Source: Macrocystis pyrifera
Taxonomy: Eukaryota > Sar > Phaeophyceae > Laminariales > Laminariaceae
NCBI GenBank assembly: GCA_031763025.1
Contig: JASSKH010000019.1
Coordinates: 7,708,336 to 7,772,335 of the forward strand
Length of the DNA: 64,000 nt
Reading direction: 5' to 3'
Under the pieces are notes generated by a model. It searched no databases, was not told where the DNA came from, and was given only the letters and a program-made list of their open reading frames with translations. The translations under genes were made by a program, and so were the position numbers. Every line of letters begins with the position of its first letter. The first letter of the stretch is position 1. Below are positions 1 through 45,589 of the stretch, piece after piece.

Positions 1-1262
1 AAGAATGGTGGACACCACAGGTCATGGACCGTGGCCCGGGCCAACCCGTAAACACACGTGAACCACCTCATGGGCAGGGCGGAGCAGCGCATGCCAAGCC
101 CAAATCGCATCGGCCGCAACCCGACCCGGACCATCTTGACTTTTATTGCGTGGGCCGCGACCGGGCCCGGCCCATCACACTTTTGAATATCCTCAGCACG
201 TCCCGGATCGGCACCGGCACATAACAGTTTAAACAACTTCGCGGCTTGGCTTGGCTCGGCTCGGCCCGGCCAATCGACCCACGACGAGGGGTCCCTGATC
301 ACATCAATATCGTTGGTCTTCGCGTTATATAGTTTATCTACTAGACGATTTCCACGTGTTGTAATTTCGTTGGGGCGACAGTCACCCGGCACAAAGACTT
401 TTGTCTCGAGGTTATGCTGGTCAACATTTTACTTCTGAATAGGAATAAATTCATGGCAAAAGTTCTCACGGGATGGTAGAAAAACTGCCTCTGCTAAAAT
501 AATCGTGGACATGTACAGCTGCTGACAACTAGAATTAAGTGCAGACAGCCGAGTGAGCCGATCGTGCTCCCGAGCTAGACTGTTCACTTTTGACGATCAG
601 ACGGTGGAGACAGCACAGCCGCGTACGGCAGATATCGCCTCACGGAGAAAGCAATTATTGCTGCAAGCTAGGGGTGTATTGTTTCTGCTCATCATGTCGC
701 CGCCGGAGCGAGTAGGCAGGGCTTACCTCTCGTATGTGGTGTTCGTGTGAGTTCGGTTGTTCTGAAGAGGCGTACTCAATCTCTTGTTTAACTCGTGTTC
801 ATTGCTGCAGAAATATTTTACTTTTTGCCTGGCGGCCCCACGCCGTCCACGACTACGGCAGCCACCGTGCCGGTGACTCCTCATAAGCAGTATCGTGTTC
901 CAGCTGCCCATGGTACCGTAGAACGAGGCGGATATCACTTGTGTTGTCTTTTGCGTGGTGCTCTAGCCAGCTCCGTGATCCTAGTAACATGCTGCCACCT
1001 CTGTGCAACTATTGTGCGTGTCGATGCAATGTGAGCAAGAAGGTTGCATTTTAGAGGCCAATTCGCGCCTATCACGGTTGCGGAAGAACCCCGCCCCCCC
1101 CCCCTCTGCCGAAATGTAGTGGCATCTCCCATTCAACACCCATGCCACCACCGCACCAAGCGGGTAGGGAGAGTATTGTCCCGTATGTGGTGCTCCAGCC
1201 AGCGTTGTGTTTTCATTCCCAGTCTCGTTCTACAGTATCTGTGTAAAGCGCATTCTCGCTTC
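1..1262. other. Intergenic; GC-rich palindromic start
   Basis: I see no convincing gene. Bases 1-210 are rich in GGCCCGGGCC-type self-complementary words, and a related GGGCCGGCCC-rich patch occurs in the right flank at 46290-46410. A short run of GGCTT/GGCTC pentamers sits at 241-271, and a long C run at 1093-1105 varies between the arms. The mirror copy is roughly 44328-45589. Confidence 0.5.
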
Positions 1263-1688
1263 TCACCTCAGCTGCTTGCTATATTCAAGCCAGTGATGCT
1301 TGTCCGAGCAGCCTTCACAAGCGGGGTGTTTTGAGTTTGCCACACAGAGATCTGTTCTGGCCAAAATTATAGGAGAAGCCTTAAATTCGTATAAGCCGCG
1401 AGAGAGGTAGCACATTTTCGCTAAAACGGTTTCTGAATGACGAAGCTCCTTAGCGGAAAATCGTCGGAATGCCAAACTTGTTTCGAAACGAAAACGTGTT
1501 GGTATATATACCTGGGCCATGGGATTAGGCATCGCGGTGCAAGTTGATTTTTGCGGAAGGCAGTCAGAAAACAAGTGGTGCACCTCTACTGTACCATGCG
1601 TCATTGAAACGTGAATAACTAAGGTCACTATTGTTGTTTTGTTTGTTCTGACTACTACGGGAGGCCAAAGTAAACAGGGCTTACGCAA
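1263..1688 (-). CDS. Candidate hypothetical exon, 141 codons
   Basis: This open frame has a plausible composition and is the same length in both arms (mirror 43903-44328, plus strand). Its last codons are followed directly by a good donor-like sequence, CTGAG then GTGAGA, so it could be an internal or first exon. The C-terminal half contains a C-x6-C-x2-C cluster (CVANSKHPACEGC), but I recognise no family. Its 5' part overlaps a small foldback element at 1652-1755, so the real coding part, if any, probably starts downstream of that. One substitution between the arms changes Pro to Gln. No neighbouring exon could be joined with confidence. Confidence 0.3.
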   Translation of the reverse strand: MRKPCLLWPPVVVRTNKTTIVTLVIHVSMTHGTVEVHHLFSDCLPQKSTCTAMPNPMAQVYIPTRFRFETSLAFRRFSAKELRHSETVLAKMCYLSRGLYEFKASPIILARTDLCVANSKHPACEGCSDKHHWLEYSKQLR

Positions 1689-1755
1689 ACTCTATGTATT
1701 TCTGTATTTTGACGAAGAAATACTTTATTCTATTTGCCATGGCCCCCGGTAATAG
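1652..1755. mobile_element. Foldback/MITE-like element, family CTATTACGGGG, copy 1
   Basis: The ends are inverted repeats. The left end begins CTACTACGGGAGGCCAAAG, and the right end read on the other strand begins CTATTACCGGGGGCCATGG. The element is 104 bp and the interior is AT-rich. The same family occurs at 4681-4796 and 51849-51959, with mirror copies at 43836-43939 and 40801-40915. It carries no coding capacity. I could not find a clear target-site duplication, so the parent superfamily is open. Confidence 0.7.
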
Positions 1756-3529
1756 TTGGGATTTATATCACCAGTATTCTTCTCGTTTTTTGTTTCCAAG
1801 TTCTCATTAGTTTTTACAAGTGTTACTCTAGCCCATTCTTAGTATTATGAGCATTATTATCACTGTCATTAATATTTTGTGATTTTTTTTCACAAATAGT
1901 ATTGCACTTGTTCATATAGGTTTTATTATCATTATTGTCATTAATAGTGTGGGTGTTGTTATGTATGCCTGGTACAGTATTGACAAAGCACTAAAGAAAA
2001 CCGTATTTAGTCATTTTATATCTCATTTTTTTCAATTTCATGTTTTTGGCCCCGGTGTGCAAAATATACTTCAACGCGGTTGACGGACGGGGGGAGTCGT
2101 GCTAACAAGTGGCTCGAAACTAAGTGGGGCGTACGACAGGTAGACGTGTACTGGCGATCCCCCCTCCGTCGGCACCGATCTGACGATAATGCTCCATCCT
2201 CTTTTACTGTCGACAGAGCTTCTGCTGTACCGGTGATATCAGAGACAGCGGCATTTACTGCAGCGACAGCTTGGCGCGTCGTAGATTACTCTACTATCCT
2301 AAGCTAGATTTGACTACCCTCATGGTTGGGTTCGCAACCTTCACGGGTACTGCATGTGCGTGCTTGTCTTTAACAGTTCGTTGTACTCAGCTCTATTCTG
2401 CGGTTTGGAACAACCTGCGTGCGAAATCGATCAATTCGTGTGCATATGCGACACGTCAAACCGGACGTGTAGCTAAACGAACACGCTTTCAGTACAACCT
2501 TCCCTTCCTGCGATTCTTGTCGCAAAGGGTTACTGTACGGTAAGGGATGTGGCACCCGTCCCCGCCGCCTTTAGTTTAGTTCGGAGTCAGTCTTCCGCCC
2601 TGTCCAATCAAAGCTGACAGAGTCTAGGCGTGTGTGGTGCTTGGGGATCTGCACAACCTCTAACGCGTGCAACGGATAGCATCTAACTTTTATGAGATAC
2701 CTTGCCGTACAACGGATCAAAAATATGCACATAAAACATTGACCGCGACCCATGGTGTCAGTTCCTCGTGTTACCGTAACGAGTGTTGCGTTGTAGCCCA
2801 GGGGTTCAATCGTTTGTCGGCCTATGGTTTCCTCTCAACAACGACATGGGTGCCTGAGCCGAATGGTATGCGTTGAGCTGTATAGGACAGCGGTGAAGTT
2901 CGTTTGTTTGTATTGTTTTGGTTGGCGGAAGTTGCCACACATCCTGTCTTCTTGAGATTAGAAAAACTCATTGAAACTGTGTGTAGTTTGAGGGAGGGTT
3001 CTGTGGATGTGTGGTCTAACATACGGGTTTAAGCGCGAGGCTCCTGAATCGAGGACAATGCTACCTTTTAGCGGTGGTTATATTTTTCGGAGCTCCTGGC
3101 ATCAGAGGAACAATATTTTACGCGAAACATGACCCTAAAGAACTATATTCACACAATCCGAATACAAGGCATCCTTCAGGCCGGTTGATTCCCATTTCAG
3201 AAGCTCAACGATTGTGAAATTGTCTTCGGTAAGGCGTTTAACCCCTAGCGTGGAACAAGTCTTGCAGATGCATAAGGATAACATCGACTTTTGTTGTATT
3301 TCTAGAGAATGAGTTGGGTATGGCGTCGAGCTTGCAAATTTGGTGAAAGTGAGGTTCCTGGTGAGTAGATATACTCGTCGCCTTCTTTGTGCAGTTCAGC
3401 CTTGAAGAGCTTAGGTCCACCCCGTACAATAGAAAGCCACGGTTCTGAACCAAGCTCGTGCGCTGAGGGGCCTACTTGTTGTGTCTCCGCATCTCTGCCG
3501 TCTCTGTTGTCTCCTCTGCATCCTTTACC
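1756..3529. other. Intergenic, AT-rich then unremarkable
   Basis: Bases 1760-2060 are AT-rich with short direct repeats of the ATTATTATCA/TCATTAAT type. Further on I see only short open frames without splice context or recognisable domains. The mirror copy is about 42062-43835. Confidence 0.4.
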
Positions 3530-3660
3530 AAACATCTGTTTGCAGAGGTTTTGCGGAGTGCGATATCGAACTTGCTTTGCTGCGAGGCTCAATGCGGGAC
3601 AACGGCGGAGCAGTTTACGATAAACGACCCGGCGGTGTGATTGGTTGGTTTAGTTTTTTG
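3530..3660 (+). pseudogene. Degenerate copy of the Cys-rich exon
   Basis: A pyrimidine-rich tract ending CTGTTTGCAG resembles a 3' splice site. It is followed by DNA that aligns with the Cys-rich exon at 5878-6061: both contain GCTGCGAGGCTCA, then TGCGGGACAACGGCGG against TGCGAGACCTGCGG, then a segment reading YDKRPGG against YDQRPGC. Most cysteine codons are gone here, so this looks like a decayed tandem relative 2.4 kb from the better copy. The mirror copy is at about 41932-42062. Confidence 0.5.
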
Positions 3661-4680
3661 TCTCCCTTTGACCTCTCGTGTCATGCGCCTCTAGATAGTC
3701 ACTCACACACACACCATTGCTTTTTCACCCACCTCGAAGATGGGGGAGATGGCTCGTACGCACCTGCCAATGTTTTTTCGGCTATAAGTAGTGTCTGGCA
3801 GGACGACGTAAACATGGATACACTGCGATATCGGCAGGTCCGACGAACAAGAGAGCTTTTCGAAAGTTTCGACTCTATAGTTGACGCACGCGGCCTATGA
3901 GATAAAGAGGTATGCCTCTTTCTAGTGTTTATTCATCTGGCAATGTGCAGCGCCTATTCCTATGACATCATCACACCTTGCACGTAAACATGGGTGTCTA
4001 GAATCTAATAAATATAAGCACGGCAAGTGTTATCAATCAAATTTGGATTGTTGACGAAATTAGGCATTGTTTCGTACAAACTGGACACGTTTATTGAGCT
4101 AGGTTTAGGGTGCGGTTAGTGTGCTTGTGACCTATTGTTTACCACGGGCTATATGTAGATACCAGGTAAGCCAAACATTGTAGTGTATGAAACATCCTGG
4201 TCACAATGATATTCATCTAGTCTCGTATGGTGCACGAAACCTTCGAACCATAGTAGTATCAGGAAGTGGAAAGTAAGTGAGTCTCAACCTTCGCGACGGA
4301 AGCACTCCTCGCCTTTTCCCGGATGCACAGGAATCCTGCTGCACACGCCGAATCTGGGACCGTGGCGACATGTGCAGTACCACATCTACGATCTACGCCG
4401 CCGTGCATCATCGAGGTTGACAACAATTTTCGTAAGTGCAGCTCTTTCAAATCCCGGGCTGACTGTCGGAGTGCTTGGGTCTTGTTTTTTTCATTTCTTA
4501 CATTACTGTAGATGCGGTACTTTGAACTTTTGTGATTCACACGTCTCTGGTATACGCAGCAACAGTGTGTACTTGCATGGTTGATTAGTGCTAGAAAGTA
4601 CTGTGCGTAAGGACGCATCCTACCTTGAAGCAGGGGTGCACCTGAGGTTCTCTGGGTCTCTGCGTTTGAGACACTCTATA
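3661..4680. other. Intergenic, nothing firm
   Basis: A 119-codon minus-strand frame at 4259-4618 is disrupted in the other arm by a short indel in an A run, and I see no domain in it. Nothing else stands out. The mirror copy is about 40916-41931. Confidence 0.4.
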
Positions 4681-4796
4681 CTATTACGGGGAACCATAGT
4701 AAATAGGACCAAATATTTTCAGTAAAAAAAGGTAATTATCTACCTGGCAGGTTTTTGTGCGTACCGTAGGTCCTATTTTCTATGGTCCCCCCCCCG
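4681..4796. mobile_element. Foldback/MITE-like element, family CTATTACGGGG, copy 2
   Basis: The left end is CTATTACGGGGAACCATAGT. The right end carries ACTATGGT-type complement (CTATTTTCTATGGTCCCC), then a C run replaces the terminal GTAATAG. The interior shares AGGACCAAATATT and GGTAATTAT with the copy at 51849-51959. It is about 115 bp and non-coding. The mirror copy is at 40801-40915. Confidence 0.75.
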
Positions 4797-5877
4797 AAAC
4801 AACAGTAATTTATTCGTACTAGCAGCAAGTCATTCGTACTGATAGTAAGTCACCGACAAGCTGACTTCAACAAAAAACGTAATAGGACACCCCGATGGCC
4901 TAGGTACACTGACATACAACGAATACCACTCAAAATCCCAGATAGATGGTGTTGCAACCAAAATGGGTATTGCATTTCCTCGATTGATGGCGGTTGATGG
5001 CCCCGACTGTCACAATCAAATTTGGTTAGGAAGTTCAACAAGGCAAGTCCTATCCTCGAATGCGCCTAAAGTGACATCTAGGCCTGGGTACACGGTAGTG
5101 CTTGTCGCCGTTGCGCAGCCGGTGCTGTGGCTAGCGGCGGAGCGGGAGCTGGCCGAGTTACAGGACTGAGGCACCAGAGCAACCAAGCATAGGTGTTTCT
5201 CAGACGGTTTACAAACGTTTGGTCAGGATCGGCATGTGTTAGTGTCCGTAAAATCTAGCGGGGTGTAGGGCAATACTTGGTTGTCTATCAGGGAAAAAAA
5301 ATACATACACGTATTTAAACAAATATATACTGTGGTGGTTTCAACCTGCACACGCAAGAGGTCAGGGGAGTGTTCGAGGTCCATGGCCAACGGCGAAAGT
5401 ACCACCTCGTGTATTGTTGAGGTTCATTCGTATCAATAGTACCGTAGCGGATGCGCAGTTAATACGTATCAACAAGAGTATTACAGCATCTTAGTTTGGA
5501 TAGTGCGCAGAATACGATGAAACAACAAGCTCCCTTTATTCTTCTTCGCTGTCGGCATAATATATGTTCAACTTCCATTTACTTTGATGGGGACGATGAC
5601 TAAAACAGATCCGGCAAGCTACAGCTTGCCAGCAAACGTATTGGGCAACCACAAATATAGGAATGTCGCCATAAGACGAATCGTCGGCCAGTGCAACAGC
5701 ACATAGAATCCATTGATCTGTATTTTGTGCGTCCACTCTAGTTCACTGCTCTTCTTTCCTCCTGTCGGCATCTCAGACCTTTCTTGTCATATTCGTTTCA
5801 GCTATCATGCCAAGAAAACAAGCACCGTTTTTTTTTCCAATCTCTGTATTCTCTATCATCATTTGTGTTCTTCGCAG
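4797..5877. other. Intergenic, nothing firm
   Basis: It holds only short frames. A pyrimidine-rich tract at 5740-5877 leads into the next exon and ends TTCTTCGCAG, so the last ~130 bases are probably intron. The mirror copy is about 39723-40800. Confidence 0.4.
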
Positions 5878-6061
5878 TCCAGGCGAATCGGCCCCCCATC
5901 TATATATCACTTGCATCAACGGTGTGCATGGTGTGCAAACCGGCGACATCTGCTGCGAGGCTCACTGCGAGACCTGCGGAGGAAGCGGTTATGACCAGCG
6001 CCCCGGTTGCAAGGTTCATTATTGGTTCATGTTACCGTCTCTTGCCCTCGCGGTGTGCTGA
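5878..6061 (+). CDS. Cys-rich secreted-type exon (best copy)
   Basis: After a strong 3' splice-like tract (TTGTGTTCTTCGCAG) the frame reads about 60 codons and includes GVQTGDICCEAHCETCGGSG followed by YDQRPGCKVH. The pattern CC-x3-C-x2-CGG-x-G-x4-RPG matches a small cysteine-rich module that I recall from brown-algal extracellular proteins. It is probably disulphide-bonded and outside the cell. Related exons lie at 3530-3660 (decayed) and 47606-47777 (minus). The frame ends at a stop soon after the module, and the later cysteines I would expect are missing, so it may be a truncated or decaying exon. The mirror copy is 39538-39722; a one-base G-run difference there changes the frame of the upstream part only. 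Confidence 0.5.
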
Positions 6062-7098
6062 GACGATAGGAGGAGCGACTTCACCGGTCCTAAGTTAGGT
6101 GTAGCACTTTTTGCCTCCAAAGGCAAGCATGTTTGACTATCGGGGGGCCGTAGACAGTGGAGCTATTAATACCTGATATCATTGAAAGGAGGTTTGTGTA
6201 ATACATTGATGGCTCGTTGTATATGCATCTACAGTGGGCCATGGGATTTCTCATCTCTAGATGCTGGTTTTGTCTGGTTTCTGGTGGGATAAGAGAGCTT
6301 CCCATGTGAGGACCCTCCGACACATTTCGATGCATGCACCCCTAGCATGACATACCTCGAATTGGTTTTCCAAGCTACTCCTCCGACTGGCGGGAGTGAA
6401 GTCTCCAAACGGAGGGGCAAGCCATTCTCGTTGAACCTCACTGGAAGACCTTACTGAACCATGCTCGGTGTGTATTCCTAGACAATGGGGTTGTTCGTGC
6501 GGTTGTTAGCGCTCGCAATTGTTTTTTGGTAAATCCAAGTGTTTGCCTGACGGATAGAGCTCGCGTGAGGAGCCCAAAGAAGGTTCATCAGTGAATTCCA
6601 AGCATAACATACGTCTCACCAAGCGAGAATGAAGTTTGGGTTCCTCACATACGAAACGGGGGGATGCCTTGTCTCTCACGCACCAGCAGGTAACGTACAC
6701 ATATACAAACCATGCTATGGTGTGAAGGATTACTCGATTCACCCCAAAAAAATGAATAGACCCAGGAAAATACGCCGCTACCACCATTCGGCAAGCACGC
6801 CTGGGCCTCGTCTATGGACCAAGCCAACACCTTAAGATTCGATGTGTACGCTGCTGAAAATAGTTCGTCAAATACTACGAAATACATAGGCGTTTGTACA
6901 GGGTTACAGCAATTGCTTACGTTTAGTTTGATTTTGAGTAAGGTGTACAACTCCTCAAGTGTGAAGGGTCAGAAACAATAACAGCAGCAGGTATTTCCCC
7001 CGCCATAGCTCGTGTCGTCAAACAGCGAGATGTACACCTCCCGGCCCCAACGTTGATTTTACTGACCTGACACAACCCACCTTCCCCGCCCCCTACAC
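6062..7098. other. Intergenic, nothing firm
   Basis: Several short frames lie on both strands, none with a domain or paired splice signals. The mirror copy is about 38501-39537. Confidence 0.4.
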
Positions 7099-7192
7099 CG
7101 TTGACAGTCCGGCGGTTGCACCAGCACCATCGAAGACGGTCATGACTACTGCAGCGCCACCAATGAGGTGCCGTGCATCCTCGACTAAGACG
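7099..7192 (-). CDS. Small candidate exon (low complexity)
   Basis: Read on the minus strand, an AG acceptor (CGTCATCAG) is followed by 94 bases whose frame contains LVEDARHLIGGAAVVMTVFD and then GAGATAGLST. A GTGTAG donor-like sequence comes next. The composition is coding-like (Ala/Gly/Val-rich), but I know no family and no partner exon. The mirror copy is at 38407-38500. Confidence 0.25.
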
Positions 7193-7328
7193 CTGATGAC
7201 GATATTTGGAAGTCAGGCTATGTCTGATATATGTTAGATCAGTAGCCTGTAGTACTAAATCAGGGACGAGGCACAGAGGAGCCGGCCGCGCCACGCATCT
7301 GAGGATGCCAAGAACGGCGACAAAGGGA

Positions 7329-7344
7329 GGGGGGGGGGGGGGGG
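7329..7344. repeat. Poly-G tract, 16 G
   Basis: A pure run of 16 G in the context AAAGGGA..AAGGGC. It has the same length in the mirror arm (38255-38270), unlike the 13067-13085 run. Confidence 0.9.
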
Positions 7345-7439
7345 AAGGGCAGCCGTACTGATAAAGCTGTCGACGAATGCAGAAACGAAATGATAAATCG
7401 GGTGGCTAGGTATCGGTTCGACTAGCCCATACAGGCTTC

Positions 7440-7866
7440 AACCTGTAGCTCCCTCTCTTTTGTGTTGCTTCGTCCGCGCAGTAGATATCTGTCCTTCCTG
7501 TGTACGTATGCTTTCCGTCTGGCAGCCTTTCTGAAGTCTTTGCGTCGTTTGTATTCTGTTTCATTTTAAAGTCTTGTTTTTTGTTTTAGCGTATTTTTCT
7601 TCTCATTTTCCTGCTTTTGTTTTGGTCTTGCTTGTGCTGTTGTGTTCTCGTACCCGGTACGCTGGCATTGCACTTGCTTAACACTTAAATTGGCTATCAT
7701 CTTGTATTTATTTATGTTTGGTCTTCCTCTGTCTCACCGTTTGTGACCACAGAATCAGTATCCCTCCAAGATGAGGAATCAGGGCGGACACTGGGTGTAC
7801 TGATGGGGTAGAAAGGACGATTTAATGTGAAGACAATATCAACAACAACAACAACAACAACAATAA
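7440..7866 (+). mobile_element. Dispersed repeat with (AAC)n tail, copy 1
   Basis: A pyrimidine-rich ~280-bp body is followed by a conserved 3' core (GTGACCACA, then GAGGAATCAGGGCGGACACT, then GTAGAAAGGACG-TTTAATGTGAAG) and a CAACAACAAC tail. The same order recurs at 50340-50775, 59488-59590 (core) and 63190-63533, and in reverse at 51228-51330. The simple-repeat tail at one fixed end suggests a SINE-like or other non-autonomous retroposon, but no tRNA promoter is clear in this copy. The mirror copy is at 37733-38159. Confidence 0.65.
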
Positions 7867-8972
7867 CGAAGTAGTGTGTAGCAATGTCCTGAGGTACGGA
7901 AAACATTTAGATTGTGACAGGAAAATACAGGAGGGTATACAACTTTTTTGTCAAGTAGAGTCCAGTACGTGTTTCCAGAAAAATATATGGTGACCTTGTT
8001 TGGAGCAATTGCATAGCCTGTTTGGGTAACGGGATACGGTAGTTGAGCACCAGGCACTGTGGGATATCACTAGAGCCGATCAGGTGGTATATGTGCTAAG
8101 AATAATATGTCATAAATGTGTGTGGCGCACCTACACCGCATGTCTGATTGTCTCGGTAGTTGAATGTTTCCAAACAAAATGGGTTGGCCTTTAGTTTTCT
8201 AGGACTTCCAGCAGCACGTTGTACAAAAAACGTTGTATGTAGTATCAATACATCAGTAGTGGAATGCCCTACGCAGGACCCTCTTATAACCACCGGTATC
8301 CGTACCACGTGTCACTCACGTTTCACCAAAGTACGTACGTAGACCTTTGATGTTTGGTTCATCTCGTCGTAAAAGAAGCTCCCTTTACGTGCAGGTTTCT
8401 TGATCTTGACTGAAGTCCAGTTCTCCTGCCGCTACTGTATAGCGAGCCAGCAGCAGTTGAGGGTGGCCGTCTTAGGTCAGCGTGCCACCTGTAGTATCTT
8501 GCCGCGTTTACGCGTCCCGAGGCTGTATAACCTATTTGGTATGGCGATTGGCGTGTGTACCAGATAGTAGTTGATGTGTACGCCTAGACTCGATGGGCGA
8601 TGTCCGGTCAACACGCAGTCGATGTTCGAAGGTAACGTATATAGTCACTGCTGTCAGCTGACTTGTACGATACGGTTGAATAGAAGAAAAAGAAGAAGAA
8701 GGTGGTGTGGTGACCCCCAGCCATAGTGTTGATAGTGATCAAACGTAGAGTAAACGAGTGGGCGTGCAAACGCTCCTGTTGTTCTGCCAACCTTGATGAT
8801 CTCAGAGACACACCAGCTGGGCCGGGCAATACCCCAACATAATGGCTGGACTGGATTTCCGAGACGGTTTTTTTTTGCAAATCACTTGTCACGTGCTTCT
8901 TAGTAGCACAACAAACATATATACGGGGGTGCGTTTTCGTTTCTTTTTCGTGAGCTTGCCCGATGTTAATAG
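7867..8972. other. Intergenic, nothing firm
   Basis: I see only short shadow frames and a purine-rich patch (AAGAAAAAGAAGAAGAAGG near 8683). The mirror copy is about 36626-37732. Confidence 0.4.
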
Positions 8973-9175
8973 GCATAGTATTATCGAGGCGCGAGAAAGT
9001 GCGAGTTTTACACGTACGGAAGAAGTTTGGGCAACCAATCAGATCAACGGGTTAATTGTACGTAGCAATTGGATAGCCTTGAGACACACCTTGCCTAGTT
9101 CGTAGTTGCTGACCAGCGAGTTAAGCACGTTGTCAAGCAGAGTCAGGGCTACAAGAGTTAGGGTGTGATATAGAT
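8973..9175. repeat. 203-bp direct repeat, outer copy
   Basis: This begins GCATAGTATTATCGAGGC and is about 95% identical to 13288-13490, in the same orientation 4.3 kb away. On the minus strand it contains a possible small exon: CTCTTGTAG acceptor, a frame reading LTLLDNVLNSLVSNYELGK, then AAG|GTGTGT donor. The two copies together bracket the tandem array region. The mirror copy is at 36423-36625. Confidence 0.85.
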
Positions 9176-9563
9176 GGGTTTGAGTTGAAGAGGGCTCTGT
9201 GTTGCGCGTTCGATATGATCTGTTTGAATGCTGAGCAAGCAGGGCTTTTCGCCAGCCAGATACTAAAAAAACAAAATGTTCCTGATCGAGAGACCTTCCT
9301 TTGAGATAGAATCGTTCGTGATGTCTTGTGAGTGCGCGGACGAGAGCAGCTAGGTGCAAATGTGGACGGAAAAACATTGGGGACCATGTCGGAGGGCATG
9401 CCAAGCGTGGCCGGACAACCCAACACAGGAGCAAATCGACAAGATCGGTACCTCCGGCATATCGCAGCACCGTGAGACGTTTCCGCGGATGTGTAGCACA
9501 GTGTGACGTTTCCCGGGATGTTGCACCCTCGGTGGTATCATTATGTTCGCAGCTTGCAAACAC
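9039..9563 (-). CDS. Candidate hypothetical frame, 174 codons
   Basis: A long minus-strand frame runs through the outer 203-bp repeat. In the mirror arm the same region (36034-36559) is split into two frames by a single-base difference in a T run, so one allele or one consensus is shifted. The segment TLLDNVLNSLVSNYELGK near its end is followed by a donor-like GTGTGT and is the most coding-like part. I recognise no domain. It could be one real exon plus intron read-through rather than a 174-residue protein. Confidence 0.3.
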   Translation of the reverse strand: MFASCEHNDTTEGATSRETSHCATHPRKRLTVLRYAGGTDLVDLLLCWVVRPRLACPPTWSPMFFRPHLHLAALVRALTRHHERFYLKGRSLDQEHFVFLVSGWRKALLAQHSNRSYRTRNTEPSSTQTHLYHTLTLVALTLLDNVLNSLVSNYELGKVCLKAIQLLRTINPLI

Positions 9564-9597
9564 ATGCGCACAGCAGTGGGCCGGTAGCCTGTGCTTG

Positions 9598-9942
9598 CGG
9601 GAATATTATACCAGACGCGAGTATGCATACTCTTGTACTTTTTCTCGGTACCAAACTCGAGAAAAGGCAAGATTAAAAAATATGACGGGTTCAGCAGCGG
9701 TGCGGATACAGCAGCAGTGTTCGTGCAGCAGTGGTTGTACGATCTTTCAAGTGCTCGTGCCGGGGCATACTATTAATGCGAAAAATCCTGGAAATATCAT
9801 ACCTCATGCGAGGCTTTCCTCTGTGGTACCAAACTCGGGAAAGGTTAGATGAGTATGACTGGTACAGCCATGCGTATACAGCAGGGGTTCGTGCAGCAGT
9901 GGTTGTACGTATGATATGTCAAATGCTCGTACCGGGGCATAC
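9598..9942. repeat. Two tandem ~172-bp units
   Basis: The two units (9598-9770, 9771-9942) each contain GGTACCAAACTCG, then a CAGCAG-rich stretch, then TTCGTGCAGCAGTGGTTGTA, and each ends CGGGGCATAC. They are diverged, roughly three-quarters identical by eye. They lie just upstream of the TATA box and hairpin array. The mirror copy is at 35655-35999. Confidence 0.75.
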
Positions 9943-10209
9943 CACGAATGTATGGCCCAACGTTCTTCTGGGAACTGGGGCGTGTGCAGTAATCCGGTAG
10001 AGCGTACTCTGAGCTACTGGTGCTCTGATTGTTTCTTGGTGGTATGAAATGATCAGGGTATATACAGGCTGTGTATCTGGTAGCGGTGGTAACTGATATT
10101 ACATTATCCTTCGCTGTAAGACGCGGATTTGGTGTCTAGCTGGCACCGGTTGCTCCACTGCGATATTGGTACAATTTGCTGGTCGCGTTTCGGGAGGGTG
10201 GCGCGTGTT

Positions 10210-10218
10210 TATAAAAGG
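10210..10218 (+). promoter_or_regulatory. TATA box before the tandem array
   Basis: TATAAAAGG is a canonical TATA element, about 60 bases before the first ATG and 160 bases before the tandem array. Together with the low stop-codon density downstream it suggests the array could be transcribed on the plus strand. The mirror copy is at 35379-35387 (minus). Confidence 0.4.
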
Positions 10219-10369
10219 TCAATCACAGGGCTGGGGTCGAAATTGCCCCATCCACTGCTGTTCTGCTAGTATGTGGCTTCCCCTGGCATGTTCCGTATCG
10301 TCCATTCGTGGGAAGTTGTGTCGGTAGAGTTACTGGCCTCTACGTGGGTGCGCCGCGTTCGTATACCGT

Positions 10370-12270: not shown

Positions 12271-12351
12271 CTTTATCAGTCAGTCTGTAACTTTCTGTCC
12301 TGATTCGCGGGTATTCTTGGGCAATTGTGTCGCAGGTAGTTTTTCCTGTTT

Positions 12352-13032: not shown

Positions 13033-13066
13033 ATTGTCATGCGCGTTCCCCATGGTATAGCAACAT

Positions 13067-13085
13067 GGGGGGGGGGGGGGGGGGG
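13067..13085. repeat. Poly-G tract, 19 G (13 in the mirror arm)
   Basis: A pure G run. The mirror run at 32518-32530 has 13 C. This one difference explains 6 of the 14 net bases separating the arms. Confidence 0.9.
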
Positions 13086-15361: not shown

Positions 15362-15368
15362 CCTTCGT

Positions 15369-32315: not shown

Positions 32316-33326
32316 TTTGCACTTCTTTCAAAGTTGTATCATATTATTGCGCACCCCCCCGCTCGGAGAGAAGGGCAAGCCCCTCAGGATACTCCAACAG
32401 CAAGTCCACGCTAGCATCCGTAAACTCGAGTTAACTTCCATCCCAACTGGCAATGTCGAACGCTCGACGCCAGCTTCTAACAAACGGATTGACCCGATTT
32501 ACGAACACATGCTAGCGCCCCCCCCCCCCCATGTTGCTATACCATGGGGAACGCGCATGACAATCTATCTCCTCCATACTCTTTTCATTTGGCACCCACG
32601 GACACGCTGCATGACCGGAATATACATTTGGCTACGTCTGCCTGTCCAACTCATAAGGTGGATCAACCCGCTCCCACCCAGGTCCGGCGGGATCCCATTG
32701 TCACGAACCTCCTGGGCGATTCCGTTTACTGTCCAGCTGGCGTCCTGCCCAGTGGCGAAACACGTCCATCGACTGCCGGACTGCAAGCCCTCCGGTACAG
32801 CTCCCCCTTTCGACGAGTTCGTTGCGCCTCCAATCCCCAGGGAGTGCCGAGCGTACTCCTCCGTGCGCACACTCCCGCCAACGCAACTACTCGTCCCTAG
32901 GTTGTCGACCGTTAAAGCGCAGTTCGCATAGAGCATCCGCTGCTGCAGACGCAGCACGTAACGAGGGGTTCGGCGAGGAAAAGCAAAGGTAGTAACAAGA
33001 CATACACGCGAACGTGCGAAGGTGGTGTCGTCACCGACGCAACGAACCCACACCCGAACACACGTAGAAACTGCCCCTTTCCCAAGCAGGTCATCGTTCA
33101 ACTCACAAAACCGCGCCTCAACGCGGGCTGCACTGCACTGCCTCTCGGACCGTTCGGCGATTGAGGTCAACATCATTCCGTCGCACGCGGACAGGATAAA
33201 CAGCCCAACTAGCAACACCCACGGGGAAAAATTAACCAGGTGCAAAAACAGGAAAAACTACCTGCGACACAATTGCCCAAGAATACCCGCGAATCAGGAC
33301 AGAAAGTTACAGACTGACTGATAAAG

Positions 33327-35227
33327 CGCACCGTCCCCGCCTGTGGACGGATGCCGCGCACACGCACTGCAACAGCACACAATCCAACGTGTGGCTCATA
33401 CTGCCCCAGATGAACGACACACGAAACAAGGACGACGAAGTCAACAAGATGCCAGACCTGCTTCGCTGAAGTATCCGCACACACTGCAACGGCACACTCC
33501 CCCCTGTAGACGGCTGGTACGCGTACCAAGAAACAAGTACCAACGCAGTCCGCTTCGACGGAGATACGCAGCGCACCCAAGGACACCACGAAGAGTATCG
33601 CGAACATATTTCCCAGATGAGTGGCTGACAAACATGCGCGAGGAAGCCGACTAATTGCAACACCTGCAGCGCTGAAGCCGACGCACTTACTGCAACAGTA
33701 CACAGTCCAACGTCTGGCACACGCTTTCTCGCATGAACGCCACACGAAACATGCATGAGGCAGTCAAAGAGTTACGATACCTGCTTCGCTGAAGCAGACG
33801 CACACGCTGCAACAGGACACCGCCTCGCCCTGTGGACAGGTGCTACGCAGCACAGACGGAGATCACGAAGCATCTCGAGACAAACTTCTCCGGATGAATG
33901 CCTAACGACCATGCGCGAGGAAGCCAACAAGTTGCGACACCTGCTTCGCTGAAGCGAGATGCACACGCTGCAGCAGGACACTGCCTCCCCCTGTGGACGG
34001 GTGCCCCGCATACGAAGAAACACTAAGATGCGACCCCTGCTTTGCTGAAGCAGACGCACACACTACAACAATTCATCGTCCCCCCCTCTAGAGAGCTGCT
34101 ACGCATACGAAGAAACAGGTACCCATGAATTCCGCGACGGCGGAGATACGCGGCGTACCCACGGACACCACGAAACGCCTTGCGAAACACTCCCCAAGAT
34201 GCACGGCACACGGACATGCGCGAGGAAGCCGACAAGTTGCGACGCCTGCGGTGCTGACCACACGCACATAGTGCAACGGCACACAGTCCAACTTGTGACA
34301 CATGCTTCCCCGGACGAACGGCAAACAAAACGTGCACGAGGAAGCCGACGAGAAGCGACATCTGCAAATATCTGACATGCAGCGCTGAAGCACACCCACA
34401 CACTGAAACAGCACACGGTTCCACTCGTAGCACACGCGTCCGCGAATGATCGCCACACGAAACACGGACGAGGGCGCCAACAAAACGCGACACCTGCATC
34501 GCGGAAGCAGGCGTACACACTGCGACAGCACACCGTCCCTGCTGTGGACGGGTGCTACGCAGACAAAGAAACGAGAACCGACACAGTTCGCTTTGGCGGC
34601 GATACACCGGTGTACCCTCGGAGGTAACTGAACATATCGCGAAAAGCTCCCCCCGGATGAACAGCTAACGAAACATGCACGAGGAAGCCGACGAGTCGCG
34701 ACACCTGTAGCGCTGGAGCAGATGCATATCCTGCAACAGCACACAGTCCAACTTGTGGCAAATGCTTCCCCGGATGATCGGCACACGAAACATGGACGGG
34801 GGAGCCAAAGAGTTGGGACACTTGCTTCGGTGAAATAGGCGTAGGCACTGCAATAGCACATGGTCCATCTTGTGGCACACGCTTCCCCGGATGAACGGCA
34901 CATGACACGTGGACAAGGAAGTCAACAAGATGCGACACCTGCTTCGCTGAAGGAGGCGCAAACACTGCGACAGCACACCGCCCCCCTGTGGACTGGTGAT
35001 ACGCAGACGAGGAAACGATAACCGACGAAATCCGCTTCGGCGGCGATACGCGGTGTACCCACGGAGGTCACCACACATCTCGCAAAAATAAAACAAAATC
35101 CCTCGGATCAACGGCTAACGCAATATGCAAGAGGAAGCCGACGAGTCGCGACGCCTGTAGTGCTGAAGCAGACGCACATGTTGCAACAGCACACAGTCCA
35201 ACGCGTGGCACTTGCTTCTCCGGATGA
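33327..35227 (-). repeat. Higher-order hairpin tandem array (mirror copy)
   Basis: This is the mirror of 10370-12270. On this strand the hairpin reads CTGCTTCGCTGAAGCAG. Unit count and order are the same in both arms by eye, which is unusual for an array free to change length between old copies and fits very recent common descent or allelism. Confidence 0.85.
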
Positions 35228-36422
35228 ACGGTATACGAACGCGGCGCACCCACGTAGAGGCCAGTAACTCTACCGACACAACTTCCCACGAATGGACGAT
35301 ACGGAACATGCCAGGGGAAGCCACATACTAGCAGAACAGCAGTGGATGGGGCAATTTCGACCCCAGCCCTGTGATTGACCTTTTATAAACACGCGCCACC
35401 CTCCCGAAACGCGACCAGCAAATTGTACCAATATCGCAGTGGAGCAACCGGTGCCAGCTAGACACCAAATCCGCGTCTTACAGCGAAGGATAATGTAATA
35501 TCAGTTACCACCGCTACCAGATACACAGCCTGTATATACCCTGATCATTTCATACCACCAAGAAACAATCAGAGCACCAGTAGCTCAGAGTACGCTCTAC
35601 CGGATTACTGCACACGCCCCAGTTCCCAGAAGAACGTTGGGCCATACATTCGTGGTATGCCCCGGTACGAGCATTTGACATATCATACGTACAACCACTG
35701 CTGCACGAACCCCTGCTGTATACGCATGGCTGTACCAGTCATACTCATCTAACCTTTCCCGAGTTTGGTACCACAGAGGAAAGCCTCGCATGAGGTATGA
35801 TATTTCCAGGATTTTTCGCATTAATAGTATGCCCCGGCACGAGCACTTGAAAGATCGTACAACCACTGCTGCACGAACACTGCTGCTGTATCCGCACCGC
35901 TGCTGAACCCGTCATATTTTTTAATCTTGCCTTTTCTCGAGTTTGGTACCGAGAAAAAGTACAAGAGTATGCATACTCGCGTCTGGTATAATATTCCCGC
36001 AAGCACAGGCTACCGGCCCACTGCTGTGCGCATGTGTTTGCAAGCTGCGAACATAATGATACCACCGAGGGTGCAACATCCCGGGAAACGTCACACTGTG
36101 CTACACATCCGCGGAAACGTCTCACGGTGCTGCGATATGCCGGAGGTACCGATCTTGTCGATTTGCTCCTGTGTTGGGTTGTCCGGCCACGCTTGGCATG
36201 CCCTCCGACATGGTCCCCAATGTTTTTCCGTCCACATTTGCACCTAGCTGCTCTCGTCCGCGCACTCACAAGACATCACGAACGATTCTATCTCAAAGGA
36301 AGGTCTCTCGATCAGGAACATTTTGTTTTTTTTAGTATCTGGCTGGCGAAAAGCCCTGCTTGCTCAGCATTCAAACAGATCATATCGAACGCGCAACACA
36401 GAGCCCTCTTCAACTCAAACCC

Positions 36423-36625
36423 ATCTATATCACACCCTAACTCTTGTAGCCCTGACTCTGCTTGACAACGTGCTTAACTCGCTGGTCAGCAACTACGAAC
36501 TAGGCAAGGTGTGTCTCAAGGCTATCCAATTGCTACGTACAATTAACCCGTTGATCTGATTGGTTGCCCAAACTTCTTCCGTACGTGTAAAACTCGCACT
36601 TTCTCGCGCCTCGATAATACTATGC
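36423..36625. repeat. 203-bp direct repeat (mirror of 8973-9175)
   Basis: Same element as 8973-9175 in the other arm. Confidence 0.85.
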
Positions 36626-37732
36626 CTATTAACATCGGGCAAGCTCACGAAAAAGAAACGAAAACGCACCCCCGTATATATGTTTGTTGTGCTACTAAGA
36701 AGCACGTGACAAGTGATTTGCAAAAAAAAACCGTCTCGGAAATCCAGTCCAGCCATTATGTTGGGGTATTGCCCGGCCCAGCTGGTGTGTCTCTGAGATC
36801 ATCAAGGTTGGCAGAACAACAGGAGCGTTTGCACGCCCACTCGTTTACTCTACGTTTGATCACTATCAACACTATGGCTGGGGGTCACCACACCACCTTC
36901 TTCTTCTTTTTCTTCTATTCAACCGTATCGTACAAGTCAGCTGACAGCAGTGACTATATACGTTACCTTCGAACATCGACTGCGTGTTGACCGGACATCG
37001 CCCATCGAGTCTAGGCGTACACATCAACTACTATCTGGTACACACGCCAATCGCCATACCAAATAGGTTATACAGCCTCGGGACGCGTAAACGCGGCAAG
37101 ATACTACAGGTGGCACGCTGACCTAAGACGGCCACCCTCAACTGCTGCTGGCTCGCTATACAGTAGCGGCAGGAGAACTGGACTTCAGTCAAGATCAAGA
37201 AACCTGCACGTAAAGGGAGCTTCTTTTACGACGAGATGAACCAAACATCAAAGGTCTACGTACGTACTTTGGTGAAACGTGAGTGACACGTGGTACGGAT
37301 ACCGGGTGGTTATAAGAGGGTCCTGCGTAGGGCATTCCACTACTGATGTATTGATACTACATACAACGTTTTTTGTACAACGTGCTGCTGGAAGTCCTAG
37401 AAAACTAAAGGCCAACCCATTTTGTTTGGAAACATTCAACTACCGAGACAATCAGACATGCGGTGTAGGTGCGCCACACACATTTATGACATATTATTCT
37501 TAGCACATATACCACCTGATCGGCTCTAGTGATATCCCACAGTGCCTGGTGCTCAACTACCGTATCCCGTTACCCAAACAGGCTATGCAATTGCTCCAAA
37601 CAAGGTCACCATATATTTTTCTGGAAACACGTACTGGACTCTACTTGACAAAAAAGTTGTATACCCTCCTGTATTTTCCTGTCACAATCTAAATGTTTTC
37701 CGTACCTCAGGACATTGCTACACACTACTTCG

Positions 37733-38159
37733 TTATTGTTGTTGTTGTTGTTGTTGTTGATATTGTCTTCACATTAAATCGTCCTTTCTACCCCATCAGT
37801 ACACCCAGTGTCCGCCCTGATTCCTCATCTTGGAGGGATACTGATTCTGTGGTCACAAACGGTGAGACAGAGGAAGACCAAACATAAATAAATACAAGAT
37901 GATAGCCAATTTAAGTGTTAAGCAAGTGCAATGCCAGCGTACCGGGTACGAGAACACAACAGCACAAGCAAGACCAAAACAAAAGCAGGAAAATGAGAAG
38001 AAAAATACGCTAAAACAAAAAACAAGACTTTAAAATGAAACAGAATACAAACGACGCAAAGACTTCAGAAAGGCTGCCAGACGGAAAGCATACGTACACA
38101 GGAAGGACAGATATCTACTGCGCGGACGAAGCAACACAAAAGAGAGGGAGCTACAGGTT
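37733..38159 (-). mobile_element. Dispersed repeat with (AAC)n tail (mirror of copy 1)
   Basis: Mirror of 7440-7866. The TTGTTGTTG run is its tail. Confidence 0.65.
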
Positions 38160-39537
38160 GAAGCCTGTATGGGCTAGTCGAACCGATACCTAGCCACCCG
38201 ATTTATCATTTCGTTTCTGCATTCGTCGACAGCTTTATCAGTACGGCTGCCCTTCCCCCCCCCCCCCCCCTCCCTTTGTCGCCGTTCTTGGCATCCTCAG
38301 ATGCGTGGCGCGGCCGGCTCCTCTGTGCCTCGTCCCTGATTTAGTACTACAGGCTACTGATCTAACATATATCAGACATAGCCTGACTTCCAAATATCGT
38401 CATCAGCGTCTTAGTCGAGGATGCACGGCACCTCATTGGTGGCGCTGCAGTAGTCATGACCGTCTTCGATGGTGCTGGTGCAACCGCCGGACTGTCAACG
38501 GTGTAGGGGGCGGGGAAGGTGGGTTGTGTCAGGTCAGTAAAATCAACGTTGGGGCCGGGAGGTGTACATCTCGCTGTTTGACGACACGAGCTATGGCGGG
38601 GGAAATACCTGCTGCTGTTATTGTTTCTGACCCTTCACACTTGAGGAGTTGTACACCTTACTCAAAATCAAACTAAACGTAAGCAATTGCTGTAACCCTG
38701 TACAAACGCCTATGTATTTCGTAGTATTTGACGAACTATTTTCAGCAGCGTACACATCGAATCTTAAGGTGTTGGCTTGGTCCATAGACGAGGCCCAGGC
38801 GTGCTTGCCGAATGGTGGTAGCGGCGTATTTTCCTGGGTCTATTCATTTTTTTGGGGTGAATCGAGTAATCCTTCACACCATAGCATGGTTTGTATATGT
38901 GTACGTTACCTGCTGGTGCGTGAGAGACAAGGCATCCCCCCGTTTCGTATGTGAGGAACCCAAACTTCATTCTCGCTTGGTGAGACGTATGTTATGCTTG
39001 GAATTCACTGATGAACCTTCTTTGGGCTCCTCACGCGAGCTCTATCCGTCAGGCAAACACTTGGATTTACCAAAAAACAATTGCGAGCGCTAACAACCGC
39101 ACGAACAACCCCATTGTCTAGGAATACACACCGAGCATGGTTCAGTAAGGTCTTCCAGTGAGGTTCAACGAGAATGGCTTGCCCCTCCGTTTGGAGACTT
39201 CACTCCCGCCAGTCGGAGGAGTAGCTTGGAAAACCAATTCGAGGTATGTCATGCTAGGGGTGCATGCATCGAAATGTGTCGGAGGGTCCTCACATGGGAA
39301 GCTCTCTTATCCCACCAGAAACCAGACAAAACCAGCATCTAGAGATGAGAAATCCCATGGCCCACTGTAGATGCATATACAACGAGCCATCAATGTATTA
39401 CACAAACCTCCTTTCAATGATATCAGGTATTAATAGCTCCACTGTCTACGGCCCCCCGATAGTCAAACATGCTTGCCTTTGGAGGCAAAAAGTGCTACAC
39501 CTAACTTAGGACCGGTGAAGTCGCTCCTCCTATCGTC

Positions 39538-39722
39538 TCAGCACACCGCGAGGGCAAGAGACGGTAACATGAACCAATAATGAACCTTGCAACCGGGGCG
39601 CTGGTCATAACCGCTTCCTCCGCAGGTCTCGCAGTGAGCCTCGCAGCAGATGTCGCCGGTTTGCACACCATGCACACCGTTGATGCAAGTGATATATAGA
39701 TGGGGGGCCCGATTCGCCTGGA
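39538..39722 (-). CDS. Cys-rich secreted-type exon (mirror copy)
   Basis: Mirror of 5878-6061. One extra G in the G/C run just inside the exon start changes which upstream frame joins it, but the Cys module itself is unchanged. Confidence 0.5.
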
Positions 39723-40800
39723 CTGCGAAGAACACAAATGATGATAGAGAATACAGAGATTGGAAAAAAAAACGGTGCTTGTTTTCTTGGCATGATAGCT
39801 GAAACGAATATGACAAGAAAGGTCTGAGATGCCGACAGGAGGAAAGAAGAGCAGTGAACTAGAGTGGACGCACAAAATACAGATCAATGGATTCTATGTG
39901 CTGTTGCACTGGCCGACGATTCGTCTTATGGCGACATTCCTATATTTGTGGTTGCCCAATACGTTTGCTGGCAAGCTGTAGCTTGCCGGATCTGTTTTAG
40001 TCATCGTCCCCATCAAAGTAAATGGAAGTTGAACATATATTATGCCGACAGCGAAGAAGAATAAAGGGAGCTTGTTGTTTCATCGTATTCTGCGCACTAT
40101 CCAAACTAAGATGCTGTAATACTCTTGTTGATACGTATTAACTGCGCATCCGCTACGGTACTATTGATACGAATGAACCTCAACAATACACGAGGTGGTA
40201 CTTTCGCCGTTGGCCATGGACCTCGAACACTCCCCTGACCTCTTGCGTGTGCAGGTTGAAACCACCACAGTATATATTTGTTTAAATACGTGTATGTATT
40301 TTTTTTCCCTGATAGACAACCAAGTATTGCCCTACACCCCGCTAGATTTTACGGACACTAACACATGCCGATCCTGACCAAACGTTTGTAAACCGTCTGA
40401 GAAACACCTATGCTTGGTTGCTCTGGTGCCTCAGTCCTGTAACTCGGCCAGCTCCCGCTCCGCCGCTAGCCACAGCACCGGCTGCGCAACGGCGACAAGC
40501 ACTACCGTGTACCCAGGCCTAGATGTCACTTTAGGCGCATTCGAGGATAGGACTTGCCTTGTTGAACTTCCTAACCAAATTTGATTGTGACAGTCGGGGC
40601 CATCAACCGCCATCAATCGAGGAAATGCAATACCCATTTTGGTTGCAACACCATCTATCTGGGATTTTGAGTGGTATTCGTTGTATGTCAGTGTACCTAG
40701 GCCATCGGGGTGTCCTATTACGTTTTTTGTTGAAGTCAGCTTGTCGGTGACTTACTATCAGTACGAATGACTTGCTGCTAGTACGAATAAATTACTGTTG

Positions 40801-40915
40801 TTTCGGGGGACCATAGAAAATAGGACCTACGGTACGCACAAAAACCTGCCAGGTAGATAATTACCTTTTTTTACTGAAAATATTTGGTCCTATTTACTAT
40901 GGTTCCCCGTAATAG
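40801..40915. mobile_element. Foldback/MITE-like element (mirror of 4681-4796)
   Basis: The right end is complete here (GGTTCCCCGTAATAG). Confidence 0.75.
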
Positions 40916-43835
40916 TATAGAGTGTCTCAAACGCAGAGACCCAGAGAACCTCAGGTGCACCCCTGCTTCAAGGTAGGATGCGTCCTTACGCACAGTACTT
41001 TCTAGCACTAATCAACCATGCAAGTACACACTGTTGCTGCGTATACCAGAGACGTGTGAATCACAAAAGTTCAAAGTACCGCATCTACAGTAATGTAAGA
41101 AATGAAAAAAAAAGACCCAAGCACTCCGACAGTCAGCCCGGGATTTGAAAGAGCTGCACTTACGAAAATTGTTGTCAACCTCGATGATGCACGGCGGCGT
41201 AGATCGTAGATGTGGTACTGCACATGTCGCCACGGTCCCAGATTCGGCGTGTGCAGCAGGATTCCTGTGCATCCGGGAAAAGGCGAGGAGTGCTTCCGTC
41301 GCGAAGGTTGAGACTCACTTACTTTCCACTTCCTGATACTACTATGGTTCGAAGGTTTCGTGCACCATACGAGACTAGATGAATATCATTGTGACCAGGA
41401 TGTTTCATACACTACAATGTTTGGCTTACCTGGTATCTACATATAGCCCGTGGTAAACAATAGGTCACAAGCACACTAACCGCACCCTAAACCTAGCTCA
41501 ATAAACGTGTCCAGTTTGTACGAAACAATGCCTAATTTCGTCAACAATCCAAATTTGATTGATAACACTTGCCGTGCTTATATTTATTAGATTCTAGACA
41601 CCCATGTTTACGTGCAAGGTGTGATGATGTCATAGGAATAGGCGCTGCACATTGCCAGATGAATAAACACTAGAAAGAGGCATACCTCTTTATCTCATAG
41701 GCCGCGTGCGTCAACTATAGAGTCGAAACTTTCGAAAAGCTCTCTTGTTCGTCGGACCTGCCGATATCGCAGTGTATCCATGTTTACGTCGTCCTGCCAG
41801 ACACTACTTATAGCCGAAAAACATTGGCAGGTGCGTACGAGCCATCTCCCCCATCTTCGAGGTGGGTGAAAAAGCAATGGTGTGTGTGAGTGACTATCTA
41901 GAGGCGCATGACACGAGAGGTCAAAGGGAGACAAAAAACTAAACCAACCAATCACACCGCCGGGTCGTTTATCGTAAACTGCTCCGCCGTTGTCCCGCAT
42001 TGAGCCTCGCAGCAAAGCAAGTTCGATATCGCACTCCGCAAAACCTCTGCAAACAGATGTTTGGTAAAGGATGCAGAGGAGACAACAGAGACGGCAGAGA
42101 TGCGGAGACACAACAAGTAGGCCCCTCAGCGCACGAGCTTGGTTCAGAACCGTGGCTTTCTATTGTACGGGGTGGACCTAAGCTCTTCAAGGCTGAACTG
42201 CACAAAGAAGGCGACGAGTATATCTACTCACCAGGAACCTCACTTTCACCAAATTTGCAAGCTCGACGCCATACCCAACTCATTCTCTAGAAATACAACA
42301 AAAGTCGATGTTATCCTTATGCATCTGCAAGACTTGTTCCACGCTAGGGGTTAAACGCCTTACCGAAGACAATTTCACAATCGTTGAGCTTCTGAAATGG
42401 GAATCAACCGGCCTGAAGGATGCCTTGTATTCGGATTGTGTGAATATAGTTCTTTAGGGTCATGTTTCGCGTAAAATATTGTTCCTCTGATGCCAGGAGC
42501 TCCGAAAAATATAACCACCGCTAAAAGGTAGCATTGTCCTCGATTCAGGAGCCTCGCGCTTAAACCCGTATGTTAGACCACACATCCACAGAACCCTCCC
42601 TCAAACTACACCAGTTTCAATGAGTTTTTCTAATCTCAAGAAGACAGGATGTGTGGCAACTTCCGCCAACCAAAACAATACAAACAAACGAACTTCACCG
42701 CTGTCCTATACAGCTCAACGCATACCATTCGGCTCAGGCACCCATGTCGTTGTTGAGAGGAAACCATAGGCCGACAAACGATTGAACCCCTGGGCTACAA
42801 CGCAACACTCGTTACGGTAACACGAGGAACTGACACCATGGGTCGCGGTCAATGTTTTATGTGCATATTTTTGATCCGTTGTACGGCAAGGTATCTCATA
42901 AAAGTTAGATGCTATCCGTTGCACGCGTTAGAGGTTGTGCAGATCCCCAAGCACCACACACGCCTAGACTCTGTCAGCTTTGATTGGACAGGGCGGAAGA
43001 CTGACTCCGAACTAAACTAAAGGCGGCGGGGACGGGTGCCACATCCCTTACCGTACAGTAACCCTTTGCGACAAGAATCGCAGGAAGGGAAGGTTGTACT
43101 GAAAGCGTGTTCGTTTAGCTACACGTCCGGTTTGACGTGTCGCATATGCACACGAATTGATCGATTTCGCACGCAGGTTGTTCCAAACCGCAGAATAGAG
43201 CTGAGTACAACGAACTGTTAAAGACAAGCACGCACATGCAGTACCCGTGAAGGTTGCGAACCCAACCATGAGGGTAGTCAAATCTAGCTTAGGATAGTAG
43301 AGTAATCTACGACGCGCCAAGCTGTCGCTGCAGTAAATGCCGCTGTCTCTGATATCACCGGTACAGCAGAAGCTCTGTCGACAGTAAAAGAGGATGGAGC
43401 ATTATCGTCAGATCGGTGCCGACGGAGGGGGGATCGCCAGTACACGTCTACCTGTCGTACGCCCCACTTAGTTTCGAGCCACTTGTTAGCACGACTCCCC
43501 CCGTCCGTCAACCGCGTTGAAGTATATTTTGCACACCGGGGCCAAAAACATGAAATTGAAAAAAATGAGATATAAAATGACTAAATACGGTTTTCTTTAG
43601 TGCTTTGTCAATACTGTACCAGGCATACATAACAACACCCACACTATTAATGACAATAATGATAATAAAACCTATATGAACAAGTGCAATACTATTTGTG
43701 AAAAAAAATCACAAAATATTAATGACAGTGATAATAATGCTCATAATACTAAGAATGGGCTAGAGTAACACTTGTAAAAACTAATGAGAACTTGGAAACA
43801 AAAAACGAGAAGAATACTGGTGATATAAATCCCAA

Positions 43836-43939
43836 CTATTACCGGGGGCCATGGCAAATAGAATAAAGTATTTCTTCGTCAAAATACAGAAATACATAGA
43901 GTTTGCGTAAGCCCTGTTTACTTTGGCCTCCCGTAGTAG
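43836..43939. mobile_element. Foldback/MITE-like element (mirror of 1652-1755)
   Basis: The ends are CTATTACCGGGGGCCATGG and its imperfect complement. Confidence 0.7.
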
Positions 43940-45589
43940 TCAGAACAAACAAAACAACAATAGTGACCTTAGTTATTCACGTTTCAATGACGCATGGTAC
44001 AGTAGAGGTGCACCACTTGTTTTCTGACTGCCTTCAGCAAAAATCAACTTGCACCGCGATGCCTAATCCCATGGCCCAGGTATATATACCAACACGTTTT
44101 CGTTTCGAAACAAGTTTGGCATTCCGACGATTTTCCGCTAAGGAGCTTCGTCATTCAGAAACCGTTTTAGCGAAAATGTGCTACCTCTCTCGCGGCTTAT
44201 ACGAATTTAAGGCTTCTCCTATAATTTTGGCCAGAACAGATCTCTGTGTGGCAAACTCAAAACACCCCGCTTGTGAAGGCTGCTCGGACAAGCATCACTG
44301 GCTTGAATATAGCAAGCAGCTGAGGTGAGAAGCGAGAATGCGCTTTACACAGATACTGTAGAACGAGACTGGGAATGAAAACACAACGCTGGCTGGAGCA
44401 CCACATACGGGACAATACTCTCCCTACCCGCTTGGTGCGGTGGTGGCATGGGTGTTGAATGGGAGATGCCACTACATTTCGGCAGAGGGGGCGGGGCGGG
44501 GTTCTTCCGCAACCGTGATAGGCGCGAATTGGCCTCTAAAATGCAACCTTCTTGCTCACATTGCATCGACACGCACAATAGTTGCACAGAGGTGGCAGCA
44601 TGTTACTAGGATCACGGAGCTGGCTAGAGCACCACGCAAAAGACAACACAAGTGATATCCGCCTCGTTCTACGGTACCATGGGCAGCTGGAACACGATAC
44701 TGCTTATGAGGAGTCACCGGCACGGTGGCTGCCGTAGTCGTGGACGGCGTGGGGCCGCCAGGCAAAAAGTAAAATATTTCTGCAGCAATGAACACGAGTT
44801 AAACAAGAGATTGAGTACGCCTCTTCAGAACAACCGAACTCACACGAACACCACATACGAGAGGTAAGCCCTGCCTACTCGCTCCGGCGGCGACATGATG
44901 AGCAGAAACAATACACCCCTAGCTTGCAGCAATAATTGCTTTCTCCGTGAGGCGATATCTGCCGTACGCGGCTGTGCTGTCTCCACCGTCTGATCGTCAA
45001 AAGTGAACAGTCTAGCTCGGGAGCACGATCGGCTCACTCGGCTGTCTGCACTTAATTCTAGTTGTCAGCAGCTGTACATGTCCACGATTATTTTAGCAGA
45101 GGCAGTTTTTCTACCATCCCGTGAGAACTTTTGCCATGAATTTATTCCTATTCAGAAGTAAAATGTTGACCAGCATAACCTCGAGACAAAAGTCTTTGTG
45201 CCGGGTGACTGTCGCCCCAACGAAATTACAACACGTGGAAATCGTCTAGTAGATAAACTATATAACGCGAAGACCAACGATATTGATGTGATCAGGGACC
45301 CCTCGTCGTGGGTCGATTGGCCGGGCCGAGCCGAGCCAAGCCAAGCCGCGAAGTTGTTTAAACTGTTATGTGCCGGTGCCGATCCGGGACGTGCTGAGGA
45401 TATTCAAAAGTGTGATGGGCCGGGCCCGGTCGCGGCCCACGCAATAAAAGTCAAGATGGTCCGGGTCGGGTTGCGGCCGATGCGATTTGGGCTTGGCATG
45501 CGCTGCTCCGCCCTGCCCATGAGGTGGTTCACGTGTGTTTACGGGTTGGCCCGGGCCACGGTCCATGACCTGTGGTGTCCACCATTCTT

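Follow-up and report, generated by a model that had tools for sequence, protein, structure and literature searches.

In the account of false duplications by the Vertebrate Genomes Project (VGP) two types are described. Heterotype false duplications arise from divergent haplotypes, and homotype false duplications are located near contig boundaries or result from sequencing errors, are often about as long as a read and show up after scaffolding as tandem copies with an intervening gap (PMC8081667). The marks listed by Ko et al. (2022) are a reduced depth, a gap between the members of the pair and discordant or spanned read pairs, with single-copy k-mers as a further mark for the heterotype; a gap separating the two copies within one scaffold counts as a primary mark, and in five of the six assemblies tabulated there the heterotype length exceeded the homotype length (PMC9516828). 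The locus described here is a mirror-image repeat within a stretch of 64,000 nucleotides, which was analysed as a whole and is called the window below. We consider it very probably a false duplication, with one locus present in two contigs (A on the left and B on the right) that were linked head to head with a placeholder gap in between.

In the minus-strand self-alignment positions 1–19189 pair with 45589–26415 as one single inverted alignment of 19,194 columns with 99.859% identity (E = 0.0), a match that cannot be attributed to chance. The inverted arms of about 19 kb with a 100-N gap, as described in the initial annotation, are thus real and their coordinates are right. The only run of N in the window is located at 26315–26414 and is exactly 100 long, which is the usual filler for a gap of unknown size. 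Two further points of the initial annotation also held. The right contig matches the left one in reverse from its first base after the gap, with 26415 pairing with 19189, and the match runs off the window on the outer side, as it is still aligned at base 1. Position 45589 is therefore an effect of the window edge and no biological edge, and the right copy has a length of at least 19,175 bp, being open at the window edge. The description of the arms as meeting at the gap is correct for the right arm, which starts there, but the homology of the left arm stops 7,125 bp short of it, leaving the sequence 19190–26314 between the end of the homology and the gap. This sequence and 45590–64000 have no exact 31-mer in common on either strand, and the left arm has none in common with either of the two. 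The features are compiled in Table 1.

Table 1. Features of the window, with their positions, orientation and the evidence used for each.
Feature	Positions	Strand	Evidence
Left copy (contig A)	1–19189	+	End-to-end inverted alignment to 26415–45589, 99.86%
Contig A sequence without counterpart in the contig B part of the window	19190–26314	.	No common 31-mer; Pfam
Scaffold gap of 100 N separating contigs A and B	26315–26414	.	
Right copy at the beginning of contig B (reverse complement of 1–19189)	26415–45589	-	Alignment
Remainder of contig B in the window, outside the stretch also seen in contig A	45590–64000	.	Position only
Suspected second small assembly seam in contig B	59541–60159	+	Tandem copy pair; seam suggested by inference

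The arms each represent the same stretch in full and are no mosaic of repeats. This can be seen from a 214-bp internal repeat (8973–9186 and 13288–13500), whose two copies are 94% identical, with 12 mismatches and 1 gap between them. For each of them the other arm contains a perfect match at the position predicted from the preceding indels, and since each copy has its own exact counterpart despite the divergence of 12 mismatches, the arms must be copied position for position. A degenerate repeat array is also present in the arm at 10358–12233 (mirror 33364–35239), with a 117-bp unit called at 10620–10946 and many pairs of roughly 75–80% identity in the wider stretch. We counted 17 difference events between the left copy and the right copy. 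Of these, 3 are mismatches and the other 14 are indel events, which account for 5 gap letters on the left side and 19 on the right. Of the 41 stop-to-stop frames of at least 100 residues in the left copy, 30 recur unchanged in its counterpart, and the differences alter the other 11. An ORF of 309 residues, located at 15871–16800 on the minus strand and at 28804–29733 on the plus strand, has the same sequence in both copies. In Pfam nothing matched it at E up to 1, the solved structures gave one weak match (E = 1.6), and a confirmed relative was not found in the viral contig collection.

To take a position between one sequence assembled twice and two alleles, the kind of difference matters as well as the number. 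The 3 substitutions in about 19.17 kb correspond to 0.016%, and the one at 1555 lies outside any homopolymer. Half of the indel events (7 of 14) are found in homopolymers of at least 6, which make up 1.6% of the arm bases, and 11 of the 14 in runs of at least 3, which make up 16%; from the remaining three, two are located in TG or AC dinucleotide runs and one adjoins a T run. As a yardstick we used the ratio of mismatches to gap openings in other repeat pairs of the same window, to be compared with 3:14 in the arms. Three chosen non-mirror pairs showed ratios of 12:1, 131:33 and 34:7 (pooled p = 1.4e-7 against the arms), but they had been drawn from four distinct non-mirror pairs and the deviant fourth one (3:18) was left out at first. 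With this pair added the contrast is p = 2.8e-6, and the fourth pair alone compared with the arms gives p = 1.0. Among the 49 self-alignment rows not touching the right copy, mismatches outnumber gap openings in 48, and the sums over all 49 (1575 mismatches and 243 gap openings) result in p = 3.7e-10 against 3:14, a value that is indicative only, as the rows overlap and are not independent. Gap openings equal or exceed mismatches in only 2 of the 128 self-alignment rows (E up to 1e-5), which are the arms and the 59541/59837 pair. Homopolymer lengths change quickly in living cells too, due to slippage, and for this reason the indel-rich spectrum leans towards one sequence present twice but could also have been formed between alleles. 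Judged from the sequence, the spectrum of differences looks more like residual consensus error of noisy long reads than like alleles.

The deviant pair is a tandem one in contig B, with 59541–59811 aligned to 59837–60159 by 3 mismatches and 18 gap openings, and all 52 gap letters are found in one copy, the first (59541–59811). The region 59541–60159 is probably another assembly seam or an unpolished read patch, and the one-sided gaps would fit a deletion-rich long-read patch that has not been polished. The pair also gives a hint, but no proof, of noisy long reads as the source. A real duplication at this site would instead weaken the yardstick, as its ratio is that of the arms. Local duplications of about 74–84% identity are clustered at 55250–60177 of the same contig.

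Near the end of contig A a retroelement is encoded on the minus strand at 21621–26202, which we take to be of the Ty3/gypsy type based on the set and order of its domains. We scanned ten proteins against Pfam, four of them from the arm. For the element, matches were obtained to a zinc knuckle (E = 1.5e-4), reverse transcriptase (1.5e-10), RNase H (5.9e-16), integrase zinc-binding (3e-11) and integrase core (1.8e-8) domains, along with a sub-threshold chromodomain (0.035), and none of the four arm proteins matched a family at E up to 1. Two overlapping frames share the reverse transcriptase match between them, and the element as assembled is therefore broken or mis-sequenced by a local consensus error. 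The gag-RT ORF (24085–26202) was compared with Pfam. For the second ORF (21624–24164) no confirmed relative was found in the viral contig or genome contig collections and none in phages, and three plasmid records match it in the integrase region with 21.6–25.1% identity over 29–40% of the query. These records (NZ_CP087956.1, NZ_CP065945.1 and NZ_CP065944.1) are labelled Wolbachia and Bacillus licheniformis, and the matches are possibly due to eukaryotic contamination of the records. The start of the upstream ORF is listed at 26202 and contig A ends 112 bases past it; assemblies commonly break in retroelements. An LTR edge that might explain why contig B stops at 19189 was not found, as no part of 19190–26314 has a second copy in the window. 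The G+C content is about 49% outside the retroelement and the observed/expected ratio of CpG is about 1, and the retroelement points to a eukaryotic nuclear sequence. As a guess, from the resemblance of the polyprotein, the source may be a stramenopile-like eukaryote.

Within the reading as a false duplication we favour the homotype over the heterotype and regard it, on balance, as probable that the same sequence was assembled twice. Reads of one genomic stretch would then have ended up in two separate contigs that overlap by at least 19.2 kb at their ends and were left unmerged there. Contig B, when reversed, would follow the locus as far as the base corresponding to 19189 in contig A and end there, and contig A would run on through the Ty3/gypsy-type retroelement and break near or inside it. 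The scaffolder would have set B after A in the wrong orientation and with the 100-N placeholder between them. The differences would be sequencing errors and not alleles, the collinear order of the locus would lead from the reversed 45590–64000 over the common 19 kb to 19190–26314, and at the true locus the reversed 45590–64000 is predicted to precede base 1. The pair has a gap between its copies on one scaffold at 26315–26414, which is a primary mark of false duplications in Ko et al. (PMC9516828), and the right copy begins directly at a contig boundary (26415), as described for the homotype. Regarding the length of about one read given for this type, the overlap has at least 19,175 bp here and is open at the window edge. 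The overlap, visible over 19.2 kb and open to the left, may be far longer than a read, which would count against the homotype. Also counting against it is the orientation, since the homotype joins of the VGP are tandem and this one is inverted, so that a mis-orientation must be added to the model.

The same geometry, gap and contig-end position would be expected if each contig represented one allele of a diploid locus and the assembler had kept the two separate before they were scaffolded head to head, as a heterotype false duplication. Phasing assemblers are able to keep even very similar haplotypes apart, which counts for the alleles, and the length differences in homopolymers and dinucleotide runs could be true allelic variants. 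The heterotype was also the larger source of false duplications in five of the six assemblies of Ko et al. (PMC9516828). On the other hand it has been described for regions with increased haplotype divergence, in animals with 0.1–1.6% heterozygosity (PMC8081667), and the arms, which show 3 substitutions over about 19.17 kb (0.016%), are low in this respect, which is a leaning and no refutation. We regard the two alleles as possible but rather doubtful. From the haplotig join proposed in the initial annotation we would therefore keep the artefactual head-to-head joining of two contigs from one locus, which is the best reading, and rate the two alleles as its less likely version in view of 0.016% substitutions and indels mostly in homopolymers and short repeats. 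The case made there against a biological origin was that the end of a natural palindrome would not be expected to coincide with a scaffold gap. This argument is unsafe, because a break inside one arm of a real palindrome necessarily places the first base of the next contig within the homology, and a contig broken in this way matches from base one.

A genuine palindrome would have arms of at least 19.2 kb, a spacer or inner arm bearing the retroelement and an assembly break at or inside the right arm; should 19189 be the true end of the homology, the spacer would measure at least 7.1 kb. The homology from the first base of the contig, as observed, would follow from a break inside the arm, and the 17 differences could be paralogous variants. 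Palindromes with an arm identity above 99 or 99.9%, which are kept by gene conversion, do exist (PMC8981503, PMC3723533). The centre, however, is crossed by no sequence in the assembly, as the 100-N gap is located there and the inner edge of the right arm is the first base of a contig, and the differences are dominated by indels and mostly bound to homopolymers. No known palindrome cargo was recognised in the small Pfam scan of four arm proteins, and a duplicated pair with a gap on one scaffold is a mark of false duplication (PMC9516828). Due to the missing centre sequence, the error-like spectrum and the base rates we have lowered the palindrome, which would be a nuclear one and either very young or gene-converted, to an improbable explanation. 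The inverted orientation and the near-identity would also be expected from a fold-back chimeric read, formed by a missed adapter or a template switch and built into the assembly as an inverted copy. Such a read yields a symmetric centre without a gap, whereas here the arms are separated by 7,125 bp of one-sided sequence and the N gap, and contig B continues for at least 18.4 kb past 45589 without any 31-mer in common with the arm or with 19190–26314, making this origin highly improbable. Searches of the window revealed no tRNA (ARAGORN, bacterial code) and no Rfam match at gathering scores, and an organelle inverted repeat or an rRNA or tRNA repeat is unlikely for this reason.

The mirror repeat is almost certainly an ordinary assembly error and as such silent on biology. 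Genes in the 19-kb stretch would count twice in the assembly, including the 309-residue ORF, and the arrangement on either side of the gap is probably incorrect. For studies on gene gain or on inverted repeats in this genome one copy would have to be dropped and the join to be re-oriented, if the false duplication is confirmed.

In comparison to known systems, the locus shares inverted arms of more than 99% identity with the sex-chromosome palindromes showing arm-to-arm gene conversion (PMC3723533, PMC8981503), but it differs from them in having an N gap instead of a continuous centre, and a sex-linked or testis-type gene family was not seen in the small Pfam scan. With heterotype (haplotig) duplications it has in common that one locus is present twice on a scaffold with a gap in between, but 0.016% substitutions would be very low for alleles that were kept apart by an assembler. 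The homotype false duplications (PMC8081667; PMC9516828) differ in being tandem, whereas the locus here is inverted and has a visible length of at least 19.2 kb, and they resemble it in the near-identical copies, the start at a contig end, the gap on the same scaffold and the differences, which look like sequencing errors.
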